A stretch of 64,000 bases of DNA from assembly GCF_000243155.2 (NCBI RefSeq), contig NC_018017.1, positions 3,472,001 through 3,536,000 of the forward strand, read 5' to 3'. Numbering within the stretch: the stretch's first letter is position 1; every line of letters starts with the position of its first letter. The notes under the pieces were generated by a model. It had not been told where the DNA came from, did no database searches, and was given only the letters and a program-made list of their open reading frames with translations. Below are positions 10,311 to 25,729 of this stretch, in pieces. Position numbers and translations under genes: made by a program. The stretch is from Desulfitobacterium dehalogenans ATCC 51507 (GTDB taxonomy: Bacteria > Bacillota > Desulfitobacteriia > Desulfitobacteriales > Desulfitobacteriaceae).

Positions 10311-11228
10311 ATGTTGACCATTCTCCTTGCCTTAATCCTGGGACTTGCTTTTCTGCTTTATGGTATGCATATTCTGCGTTACGGACTTCAAGCGTTTGCC
10401 GGAGACACCTTCCGCGATCTTCTCCATCAAATGACCGCCACCCCCTGGCGGGGCTTCTGGAGCGGAACCCTTGCTACGGCTGCTCTTCAATCCAGTACTG
10501 CCCTGACAGTTATGGCCGTCTCTTTTGTGGATTCCGGCCTTATTTCCTTTCGAAACGCCTTAGGGTTGATTTTAGGAAGCAATATCGGCACAACCGTGAC
10601 CACCCAGCTTCTGGCCCTACCCTTGGAACCCATGATACCCTATGCCCTTTTGATTGGTGGGCTAGGCTATCTTTTCTTTCCCCATCGCTGGCGTTATCTT
10701 GCCCTCTCCTGCTTAGGTTTAGCTTTTCTCTTTCTTGCTTTAAATCTTTTGGAAAGCGGTATGGCTCCTTTAGCCGAGGTAGAGAGGGTGCAGGAATTAC
10801 TCCATCAACTGGGAGATCATCACTTCCAAGGCATTATCGCAGGTACTCTGCTTTCCGCCGTCCTCCATTCCTCATCAGCCACCACCGGGATTGTCATGAT
10901 TCTGGCTTCAGATGGTTGGATTACTCTTCCTACAGCCATTGCCTTCGTATTCGGAGCCAATATCGGCACCTGCTTTACAGCCGTCATCGCTTCATTAGCC
11001 ACTAACCGGGCAGCCCAACGGGTAGCCCTTTTCCACGTCCTTTTAAACCTCTTCGGCGCGCTTCTTTTCTTTCCCTTCCTAACGCCACTCGCTCTTTTCT
11101 TGCAATGGATCGGGGGACCTGTCAGCCTCCAGGTAGCCAACGCCCATACCCTTTTCAATGTGCTGTCTTCTCTCATTGCCATGCCTTTTCTGCCTCTGGC
11201 GGCCCGGCTTTTAGAGCGGATACGCTAA
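10311..11228 (+). CDS. Na/Pi-cotransporter-family membrane protein
   Basis: 305-aa polytopic membrane protein with about eight hydrophobic segments. It contains the inverted-duplicate signature of Na/Pi symporters (NptA/YjbB family): QSSTALTVMAV in the first half and HSSSATTGIVMI in the second, each followed by a GSNIGTT / GANIGTC motif. It lacks the C-terminal PhoU-like domain found in longer YjbB proteins. Phosphate or another anion is the likely substrate. An AAAGGAGAGG site precedes the ATG. It is one of only two convincing plus-strand genes in the window and runs divergently from the GNAT gene. Confidence 0.85.
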   Translation: MLTILLALILGLAFLLYGMHILRYGLQAFAGDTFRDLLHQMTATPWRGFWSGTLATAALQSSTALTVMAVSFVDSGLISFRNALGLILGSNIGTTVTTQLLALPLEPMIPYALLIGGLGYLFFPHRWRYLALSCLGLAFLFLALNLLESGMAPLAEVERVQELLHQLGDHHFQGIIAGTLLSAVLHSSSATTGIVMILASDGWITLPTAIAFVFGANIGTCFTAVIASLATNRAAQRVALFHVLLNLFGALLFFPFLTPLALFLQWIGGPVSLQVANAHTLFNVLSSLIAMPFLPLAARLLERIR

Positions 11229-11235
11229 ATCTCCA

Positions 11236-11464
11236 GGATTTTGCTTTACACCGGTCGCTCCATAAGCTGCGCGGACAAAACTAACACTCAAGCTCTCCGC
11301 TCCGTCGGGTCCCCGCCCAAATCGCTCCTCGAAAGCACTGCTTTCGCACTTGTTCTCAATGGGCGGTTGGAAACGTCCTGTTTCCAACCCGACTCCGCTG
11401 CGTGCTTTTCGCGAAGTTTTGTTTCCGCTCGCTTAAATTCGCTTCCTTTTGTAAAGCAAAATCC
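11236..11464. mobile_element. MITE-like palindromic element with 15-bp inverted ends
   Basis: 229-bp segment bounded by perfect 15-bp inverted repeats, GGATTTTGCTTTACA (11236-11250) and TGTAAAGCAAAATCC (11450-11464). The interior holds further nested complementary arms, including CCGCCCA / TGGGCGG and the hairpin GGTTGGAAAC / GTTTCCAACC. It has no transposase or convincing ORF. It starts 8 bp after the transporter stop codon. A non-autonomous element or a large structured RNA would both fit. Confidence 0.6.
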
Positions 11465-11662
11465 TTGGGCTGTTTTTCGGGTCTGAGCAAGCGGGGCGTT
11501 GTGGGAGATGTGGGGCAAGTCGCCTGACCCGAGCCGCTTTTTCCGTCTTTACCGACGCCGCTAGAGCGGCAGGGTCGGCTACCTTAAGAAGGACCCTGAA
11601 GATGACCCTAGGAATTCCTCACAAAAGGCCCCAGGACCCAAAAAACAGTGCTGAAAGGAGGC
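11465..11662. other. Gene-free spacer with further hairpins
   Basis: About 200 bp between the palindromic element and the structured repeat. It contains paired CGGGTC / GACCCG arms around 11479-11540 and a perfect hairpin GCCGC-TAGA-GCGGC near 11560-11573, whose flanks (CCGAC before, GGGTC after) resemble the tail hairpins of the repeat family. No convincing coding sequence was seen. Confidence 0.5.
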
Positions 11663-11855
11663 CCGCAAGCGTAGCTATACGCACAAAAGCGAACGGATTT
11701 AGCGGAGGGGCGGTCTTGTCAACGAGGCTTTCTTAACTTAGACGAGCCACCGGTTAACATGCAGAAAACAGCGGGGTTTGGCTCGGCTGTTAAGAAAGCG
11801 AGTGGACCAGCCCCGGAGCTATGGAGTGAGCGTTGTGCGTATAGCTACACGACCT
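11663..11855 (+). repeat. Structured repeat, copy 1
   Basis: About 193-bp element that recurs at 25452-25644 in the same orientation. Four nested complementary arm pairs make a long rod: GTAGCTATACGCAC / GTGCGTATAGCTAC (perfect), GGAGGGGCGGTC / GACCAGCCCCGG (imperfect), GCTTTCTTAAC / GTTAAGAAAGC (perfect) and GAGCCA / TGGCTC. A 13-bp direct repeat AGCTACACGACCT appears at its downstream end (11844 and 11874). A tail hairpin follows at about 11905-11935. It has no ORF with a ribosome-binding site. Confidence 0.7.
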
Positions 11856-11941
11856 GCGCCTACTCTGCATTCAGCTACACGACCTCTGCGAGCCTTTTCC
11901 CCCTCTGCCGACGCCTCTTGAGCGGCATGGTCAGCCCCTCC

Positions 11942-11977
11942 AAAAAAAGTGAGACAGGACCTTCCCTGTCTCACTTT
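11942..11977 (-). terminator. Terminator after mobB
   Basis: 13-bp perfect stem AAAGTGAGACAGG / CCTGTCTCACTTT with a 6-nt loop, followed on the minus strand by a run of seven T residues. It overlaps the mobB stop codon. Confidence 0.88.
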
Positions 11978-12462
11978 AATCCATATTTACTTGCCAGAAA
12001 ATCACAGATTCCCCGGGCATCATCCAAGTCGAAGCAAGGTACCCCCAGCTCAAATTGGACGTCACTGGCAATGGCGATCAGCTGCTCCGGCTTGGATAGG
12101 AGCTCCTGATGGACCTCTGAGCGAAAAACCTCTATACGAGGCTGATTCCCGTGCTTATACCCCTCAGTAAAAATGAGATCCACATTATTTATGCGCTCCA
12201 GTACTTGCGCCAAGGTCTGCTCCTCTTGGACTTTTTCAAGGATAGCCATCTTTTCCGGGGACGATATGGCGACCACATCCGCCCCTGCCTGGGCAAACCG
12301 CCAAGTATCTTTCCCCGGCTTATCCATCTCAAATCCATGAACATCATGCTTAACTGCGGCAACTCTCCAGCCCCGGTTTTTGGCTTCTTTTAAGAGCTTA
12401 ACCAGCAAGGTGGTTTTACCTGAGTTCGAGCGTTGCCCGACGATCGATACCACTGGAATCAT
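11971..12462 (-). CDS. mobB: MobB, molybdopterin-guanine dinucleotide biosynthesis adapter
   Basis: 163-aa P-loop GTP-binding protein that assists MobA in attaching GMP to molybdopterin to form bis-MGD. Visible motifs are VGQRSNSGKTTL (Walker A, residues 8-19), AAVKHDVHGFEMD and a Walker B-like LIFTEGYKHG near residue 100, all characteristic of MobB. It directly follows moeA without a gap (moeA stop adjacent to the mobB ATG) and ends in a terminator, so the two form an operon for molybdenum cofactor synthesis. MobA is not in the window. Confidence 0.9.
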   Translation of the reverse strand: MIPVVSIVGQRSNSGKTTLLVKLLKEAKNRGWRVAAVKHDVHGFEMDKPGKDTWRFAQAGADVVAISSPEKMAILEKVQEEQTLAQVLERINNVDLIFTEGYKHGNQPRIEVFRSEVHQELLSKPEQLIAIASDVQFELGVPCFDLDDARGICDFLASKYGLK

Positions 12463-13677
12463 TTAATCTTCCTCCCATGAAGCAATCCAGCGGCCTTGCA
12501 GGCGCTCGCCCTTTTGAACCGGTCCATGTCCACCAGGAACATCCACCAGGAGATGGCTTCCCCTCATTGAGCGGAGGACGCCGGAACCTTGAGCAAAGCT
12601 GGGATCCGCCCATATCTCCCCGTTGCGAAAGACAGCCCGAGCCCGTAAGAATCTTCTCTGTTTGCCGGATTTCCCAAAATCACCGTCCATATAGACGGGA
12701 AAAACCCGTTCATGAGATGTTCTGCCCATAAGTTTGCGCAGGGCAGGGCGGACTAAGAGTTCGTAATTCACTACCGCCGCCGCGGGATTTCCCGATAAAG
12801 AGAAATATAGCCTTTCCCCCTTGACTCCAAGGGCCACAGGGGTTCCAGGTTTAAAGTTAACCTTCCAGAAGAGGAGTTCACAGCCCACACCTGCCAAGGC
12901 ATCGCGGATGAGATCGTATTCGCCCACTGAAGCTCCTCCGGTAGTAACCACAAGATCCGTGTCTTCCAAAGTCTTTAAAGCCTCAATGGTCTCCCCCAAA
13001 TCATCCTCCACAAAGGGGGCTACCTTCACCTCACATCCCGCTTCCAGGAGAAGGCCTTTGAGGGTATAAGTATTGCTGTTATAGATTTTCCCTGGAGGCA
13101 ATGGACTGCCCACATCCCGGAGCTCTGAGCCCGTGGACAGAATTCCTACTTTGGGACGGCGATACACTTCAACCGCCTCAACACCTAAGGAAGCTAATAA
13201 CCCTACGGCGGCAGGAGAAAGGTAGTCCCCTACTTTTAAAACGATATCACCGCATTTTGTTTCTTCCCCTTGATAGACTACATTGGCTTGAGGGGCAACA
13301 GGTTGATTGATTCTCACTCGGTCTCCCAGGCGTTCCGTATCTTCCTGTTTTACCACGCAATTCGCACCCTTAGGAAGTGGTGACCCGGTAAAAATCCGGG
13401 CACATTCCCCAAGCTGAATTTCCCGCTCAGACCATGTCCCGGCAGGAATCTCACTGACGATATTGAGGGTCAAGGGAGCTTTGTCTGTTGGCTGAGCGCA
13501 ATAAGCATACCCATCCAAGGGAGAACGATCGAAAGGCGGCATATCCATTGGCGCTTGAACATCAGCTGCTATCACTCGGTTATAGGCCTGTCCTAAACCC
13601 ACTTTTTCAACCCCAAGGGCCTTTACCCGCTGGAGGACAACCTCCAAGGCCCGTTCCAGAGAAATCATTGTTTCCAT
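12463..13677 (-). CDS. moeA: MoeA, molybdopterin molybdenumtransferase
   Basis: 404-aa enzyme inserting molybdate into adenylylated molybdopterin. Conserved segments include PPFDRSPLDGYA near the N-terminus, GILSTGSEL, the MPT-binding TTGGASVGEYD loop and the FSLSGNPAAAVVNYELLVRP region. The start at 13677 follows AAGGGGTGGAAG. An earlier in-frame ATG at 13713, just after the preceding stop, has only a weak AAAGGG and would add 12 residues. The mobB and FapA-like neighbours are on the same strand with almost no spacing. Confidence 0.92.
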   Translation of the reverse strand: METMISLERALEVVLQRVKALGVEKVGLGQAYNRVIAADVQAPMDMPPFDRSPLDGYAYCAQPTDKAPLTLNIVSEIPAGTWSEREIQLGECARIFTGSPLPKGANCVVKQEDTERLGDRVRINQPVAPQANVVYQGEETKCGDIVLKVGDYLSPAAVGLLASLGVEAVEVYRRPKVGILSTGSELRDVGSPLPPGKIYNSNTYTLKGLLLEAGCEVKVAPFVEDDLGETIEALKTLEDTDLVVTTGGASVGEYDLIRDALAGVGCELLFWKVNFKPGTPVALGVKGERLYFSLSGNPAAAVVNYELLVRPALRKLMGRTSHERVFPVYMDGDFGKSGKQRRFLRARAVFRNGEIWADPSFAQGSGVLRSMRGSHLLVDVPGGHGPVQKGERLQGRWIASWEED

Positions 13678-21775: not shown

Positions 21776-21874
21776 TTACTCCTCCTCGCATAAATTAAAC
21801 TCTTTTTCTAAAATGATCTCCTCTACTTCTACTACATCTTTTTTGATCAAAATGCTTTTGCCGCCCCGCAGCAT
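21776..21874 (-). CDS. 32-codon ORF between cysN and the sulfite reductase gene
   Basis: An ATG-to-stop frame encodes a 32-residue basic-then-acidic peptide (GKSILIKKDVVEVEEII core). It ends five bases before the sulfite reductase GTG, with the reductase ribosome-binding site inside its last codons, so it could couple translation. Its first codons fall within a sequence also found at 25675-25687, the tail of a structured repeat. It may therefore be the 3' remnant of a larger gene rather than an independent one. No family recognised. Confidence 0.35.
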   Translation of the reverse strand: MLRGGKSILIKKDVVEVEEIILEKEFNLCEEE

Positions 21875-21918
21875 GACCGACTACTCTGAAAATGACCCGT
21901 GAAAAAGCCGTAGAAACC

Positions 21919-25370: not shown

Positions 25371-25451
25371 TTCATTTCTCCTTCTCTCTTTCTGTATTCC
25401 CCCATCCTCAGTCCGCACTGTCTGTGGTAGGGGAGTCTTTACACGAGAAAA

Positions 25452-25644
25452 CCCGCAAGCGTAGCTTAACGCACAGGAGCGAACAATTTTAGCGGAGGGG
25501 CGGTAGGGTTAACGAGGCTTTCTTAACGTTGCGAAGCCATGGTTCACATCAGGTATTACCTGGAGGTTTGGCAGAGCTGTTAAGAAAGCGAGTTGACCAG
25601 CCCTGGAGCTACTGAGTGAGCGATGTGCGTAAAGCGACACGACC
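25452..25644 (+). repeat. Structured repeat, copy 2
   Basis: Second copy of the element at 11663-11855, same plus-strand orientation, sharing most positions and all arm pairs. GCTTTCTTAAC / GTTAAGAAAGC is perfectly conserved. The outer arms have diverged (GTAGCTTAACGCAC / GTGCGTAAAGCGAC), and the apical stem reads GCCA / TGGC with a new CAGGT-ATT-ACCTG hairpin inside. A tail hairpin follows near 25665-25690. It occupies most of the 359-bp gap between the ROK gene and cysH. Confidence 0.7.
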
Positions 25645-25729
25645 CGGACAACACTTTTCATCCTCTGCTGGTGCCGCCCCGCAGCATGACTGCCTACTGT
25701 GAAAGACAATCATAAAGCTGCCCGGCCCT

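Follow-up and report, generated by a model that had tools for sequence, protein, structure and literature searches.

A class-wide, modular rod-shaped repeat of Desulfitobacteriia with selection on a single-strand fold and marks of mobility

Why does the chromosome of Desulfitobacterium dehalogenans ATCC 51507 carry, twice within 64,000 nt and in the same orientation, a palindromic sequence of about 193 bp? The window, by which we mean the whole stretch analysed here, covers these 64,000 nt (positions 3472001-3536000 of the closed chromosome of 4,321,753 bp), and the two copies, designated rod B copies 1 and 2, lie at 11663..11855 and 25452..25644, both on the (+) strand. A sequence-only reading had proposed a structured RNA or a hairpin-dependent mobile element, a proposal supported by the strong strand-specific covariation, the empty orthologous sites and the recent near-identical copies described below. 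Small structured repeats of bacteria are usually limited to one species group, and this confinement has made selection on the fold, the strand concerned and the reason for it hard to judge. The rod family is class-wide with hundreds of copies, so that its natural variation reveals the fold, the strand and the modules. We consider it probable that the rods are non-autonomous, modular, structured mobile elements.

Rod B copies 1 and 2 are 82% identical across 196 columns, and both fold far more stably than dinucleotide shuffles of themselves (z -6.5 and -5.2, respectively), none of 200 shuffles being equally stable in either case. Copy 1, a 193-nt rod matched by models R1 and R2 and supported by covariation in alignment A4, has 16-base outer arms (11671-11686 / 11833-11848) with 100% complementarity, 11-bp inner arms (GCTTTCTTAAC/GTTAAGAAAGC) and the apical variant GCAGAAAACAGC. 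Copy 2 (model R1 match G000:C1:3497447-3497650) carries the alternative apical variant CAGGTATTACC. The innermost stem differs between them, GAGCCA/TGGCTC against GCCA/TGGC, with complementarity retained, just as had been noticed from the letters. The 11-bp arm had been called invariant; it is indeed common to both window copies, but across the class every one of its 11 pairs covaries, with changes on both sides.

An exact match to the 11-bp arms alone found 42 copies in the D. dehalogenans genome, and the reversed pattern found none. Copy counts were otherwise taken from covariance-model searches and are to be read as minima. The rod B model, built from 27 copies, located at least ~75 distinct loci on both strands of this genome and matched 36 of the 45 genomes of the family and 48 of the 73 of the order, while a broader model extended the range to 55 of 82 in the class, with 17 of 27 genera represented. 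Among the matches listed, the exact tip pattern occurred in Desulfosporosinus, Paradesulfitobacterium, Desulfitobacterium and Peptococcaceae/Clostridiales. The family had not been recognised from sequence, and Rfam 15 gave no match to the window at the gathering score and none to the rods of five loci at E up to 5. No description was found in the open-licence papers searched; the family is new to both sources.

The fold was examined in 52 divergent copies aligned by sequence alone (A4), with the structure taken as the RNAalifold consensus, in which 94.7% of alignment cells were paired. Changes on both sides were found in 45 of the 60 pairs, and the covariation score was 0.377, as compared to 0.161 in shuffled alignments and at most 0.072 with partners slid. 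Deriving the structure from A4 itself gives it an advantage over the slid controls; the shuffle control and the count of double changes are independent of that advantage, and none of 500 shuffles matched any of five covariation measures. The tip and loop sequence (GGTTCAC..GAGGTTTGGC) and the fold are kept deep, across families. These results show that what evolution preserves is the fold and not the stem sequence.

Which strand folds was read from the kinds of departure from pairing. A DNA palindrome alone is expected to show an equal rise of G-U and A-C departures. On the tree, G-U was gained 64 times and A-C 11 times (p 3e-10), whereas the corresponding substitutions in unpaired columns were balanced (113 versus 114), and the D. 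dehalogenans genome by itself gave 72 G-U and 8 A-C cells. Since unpaired sites are unbiased, the excess shows selection for single-strand folding of the plus strand, whether as RNA or as single-stranded DNA; G-T wobble is tolerated in DNA too, so the bias does not separate the two. For rod A, the larger palindromic module described below, the same test gave 198:46 by cells, yet 21 versus 29 by pairs. The rod B strand test bears directly on a classical miniature inverted-repeat transposable element (MITE), that is, an element derived from an insertion sequence by deletion and moved double-stranded by a cut-and-paste transposase recognising the inverted ends, with the fold a by-product of a long palindrome. 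Rod B resembles a MITE in being small, non-coding, palindromic, intergenic and multi-copy, with empty sites, but that origin predicts equal departures and leaves the conserved internal loops and tip unaccounted for, and no insertion sequence with the same ends was present among the retrieved loci, a rod-centred sample; we disfavour it as improbable.

Evidence for movement came from orthologous loci in a congener (G001), with flanks mostly 84-91% identical. In Desulfitobacterium, rod B usually occupies the 3' position in a composite, in which rod A, a connector (a short GC hairpin) and rod B follow one another in constant order and orientation; it may also stand alone, as window copy 2 does. 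At the site of copy 2, G001 lacks the element and 3 bases separate the flanks. Rod B is missing from G001 at locus 126182, where the junction is not clean, the entire composite is missing at locus 978881, and at loci 1141492 and 1425819 G001 has rod A without rod B; at the latter locus GACCCAGAT / GACCCGGAT border the DNA that is extra. Recent multiplication was found in Paradesulfitobacterium ferrireducens PLL0 (G041), which has 16 copies with rod identity of 98.9-100%, all at different sites, their similarity confined within sharp limits of ~245-255 bp. Five further copies, identical to one another and likewise at different sites and alike only within such limits, have the rod in the opposite orientation with respect to the same terminal motifs. 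Because of these empty sites and recent near-identical copies, the element is a mobile dispersed repeat. The ends of the P. ferrireducens element (CTGACTCCTGCCCTGAAAATAG and GGTGCCGCATAGCGGCATGGGAGTC) resemble the Desulfitobacterium connector, a likeness by which the connector probably represents the terminus of the mobile unit.

The P. ferrireducens insertions adjoin degenerate 7-base repeats (CTGACTC, CTGAATT, CTGAGTA). At loci L318-L336 of this species, arrays of these 7-mers and their reverse complement flank many rods (e.g. L324:4801-4925), and the 7-mers also make inverted arrays around a small hairpin. The right ends of near-identical copies bear variable runs of the repeats, which recall slippage tails and, together with strand-specific pairing, would suit an RNA-mediated retro element, in which a host reverse transcriptase turns the transcribed rod back into DNA, the route taken by eukaryotic short interspersed elements (SINEs). 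Reverse transcriptases were present in 13 of the 14 genomes tested, but their numbers do not follow those of the rods (13 in G004, where no rods were found, and 1 in D. dehalogenans), and the 7-base repeats are also found to the left of the element and at a distance from it. We regard this route as decidedly unlikely, and equally doubtful is the broader notion of a bacterial counterpart of SINEs, a small non-coding rod RNA copied back via RNA throughout the class with a borrowed enzyme acting in trans.

In the non-autonomous mobile element that we favour, one strand forms the rod of ~190 nt, which is a long hairpin with interruptions and a conserved tip. A host enzyme supplied in trans may recognise this folded single strand, whether RNA or single-stranded DNA, which would be the most likely reason for selection on the fold; we infer that mobility requires it. 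The enzyme would insert copies into intergenic gaps, in many cases next to an older element or a short repeated motif, and in this way composites would be built. With its very recent copies, P. ferrireducens offers a chance to catch the mobilising machinery. Should the moving form prove to be the folded strand, the survival of enzyme-less non-coding parasites in bacteria would become testable.

Several observations weigh against this interpretation. No mobilising enzyme was found. The Y1 (RAYT) transposase had no match in the rod-bearing genomes G002, G006 and G017 and was present in the rod-free genomes G004, G038, G043 and G044; neither RAYT/REP nor a reverse transcriptase, the latter with the uneven counts given above, co-occurs with the rods as a mover should. 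The junctions examined showed no clean target-site duplication with a variable sequence; GACCC at both rod B ends is a fixed motif, and the P. ferrireducens ends are blurred by degenerate 7-mers. This result may also count against a MITE. The query sequences tried had no match in phage and plasmid collections, and carriage as phage or plasmid cargo was rejected on that result. Finally, many insertions share one intergenic gap in two species. Same-gap copies of two species are rarely closest relatives (ranked first in 2 of 18), which suggests turnover or gene conversion, although a retained local function could also explain them.

Another possibility is that the rods are a multi-copy family of host non-coding RNA with a cellular role (e.g. 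an RNA that binds proteins or acts as a sponge, or a signal for RNA processing), spread by occasional duplication, with the fold kept for the host. The deep conservation of fold, tip and loop sequence across families, a G-U bias as expected of transcribed RNA and the occupation of the same gaps in related species all agree with it. However, relatives differ in copy number, from 0 to over 70, one species has identical recent copies, and copy 1 has no promoter-like site (no sigma-70-like promoter in a scan of 11100-12000). The genomic surroundings, assessed with simple longest-open-reading-frame gene calls, speak in the same direction, in that for 23 of 75 copies the genes on either side both lie on the opposite strand, and the neighbouring genes are ordinary and unrelated, with 197 Pfam families among the 112 neighbour proteins, each found in at most 4. 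We therefore judge a host RNA rather unlikely. A cis-regulator of one gene class was rejected, the neighbours being unrelated and the orientation mixed, and so was an intrinsic terminator at copy 1, where the terminator signal was no higher than in shuffles. The copies are intergenic, and 16 lie in convergent gaps and 2 in divergent ones (p 0.0013), two kinds that are equal in number on a circular chromosome; next to co-directional neighbours, 34 copies are sense and 23 antisense, a difference that is not significant. The excess of convergent gaps and the unrelated neighbours speak for the mobile element. The neighbours of the window copies encode a Na/Pi transporter relative, MobB, a CysH-type reductase and a ROK-family protein.

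Known systems offer partial likenesses. The folding of Bacillus cereus bcr1 is conserved, and the rod family is like it in behaviour; the two are set apart by description. The BCRs (bcr1 and relatives) are reported solely from the B. cereus group (PMC6542083), whereas the rod family spans a class, has GACCC, CTACTC and CTGACTC-like motifs and comprises several hairpin modules. The pneumococcal BOX, RUP and SPRITE elements are small interspersed repeats with extensive secondary structure, judged parasitic; BOX is built of modules and varies in length (67-637 bp), and the three are nearly absent from other streptococci except S. mitis, with a related set in S. suis (PMC3049150, from which the word covariation is absent). 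The rod family is likewise modular, structured and interspersed, a likeness in kind, but is class-wide and built of different modules. ERIC is an imperfect palindrome. ERIC / IRU are described as enterobacterial intergenic units of 127 bp with MITE-like features (PMC2759123, PMC2229807); compared to the rod family they are shorter, form no composite with other rods and belong to a different phylum. Single-strand folding probably matters for REP sequences. REP/BIME are described as palindromic, intergenic and of high copy (PMC3733652), but REPs measure 20-40 bp against ~193 nt for the rods, and Y1 transposases are missing from the three rod-bearing genomes named above.

The sequence-only reading had located a rod correctly at copy 1, but 11663-11855 is one module and forms the 3' portion of a composite (~11217-11937). 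Rod A occupies 11217..11480 (+), as determined by repeat coverage, inverted-repeat search and consensus fold, and the inverted-repeat search gave it perfect 16-bp outer arms (11235-11250 / 11450-11465). Rod A was also found in G002, and a profile hidden Markov model search near Desulfosporosinus rods detected none. The spacer between rods A and B contains a connector hairpin (CCGACGCCGC..GCGGCAGGGTCGG, 11552..11578, +) like the right end of the Paradesulfitobacterium mobile unit. On the 3' side of copy 1 lie a duplicated tail motif (AGCTACACGACCT, 11866..11885, +) and a second connector hairpin (CTGCCGACGCCTCTTGAGCGGCATGGTCAGCC, 11906..11937, +). At copy 2, the complete inserted segment, delimited by the empty site in G001, consists of rod B and a 3' connector hairpin (TGCTGGTGCCGCCCCGCAGCATGACTGCC, 25668..25696, +) and extends over approximately 25403..25706 (+; converted from the alignment). 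A solo connector with the left-end motif TTTTGCCGCCCCGCAGCATGACCGACTACTCTGAAAATGACCC, without an adjoining rod, is present at 21850..21900 (+).

Within rod B, the tip takes one of two interchangeable forms (GCAGAAAGCAGC or CAGGTATTACC), GACC(C) is present at both ends, and either arm may contain an optional insert of ~66 nt, the 3' insert being a separate hairpin. Large extra hairpin modules occur in the arms of the rods at L323:1-290 and L321:8941-9300, with rod pairing apparently kept, and are comparable to these ~66-nt inserts. At columns 32-38 / 178-183 of A4 there is a symmetric internal loop, GTGAAC opposite GTGAAC, consistent with tandem G-A pairs, and in D. dehalogenans rod B GGTGAAC/GTGAACC alternates with the fully paired GGTCAAC/GTTGACC. 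Near a rod in G006, an ordinary known RNA was recognised, a glycine riboswitch (L139:2963-3054, -; Rfam RF00504, E 4e-11). In Desulfosporosinus-type genomes, inverted rod pairs lie up to ~1 kb apart (L175, L160, L154 and L163), and in Desulfosporosinus acididurans (NZ_LDZY01000015) tandem rod pairs ~350 bp apart occur twice in 8 kb, at L157:4657-5214 and 11955-12501.
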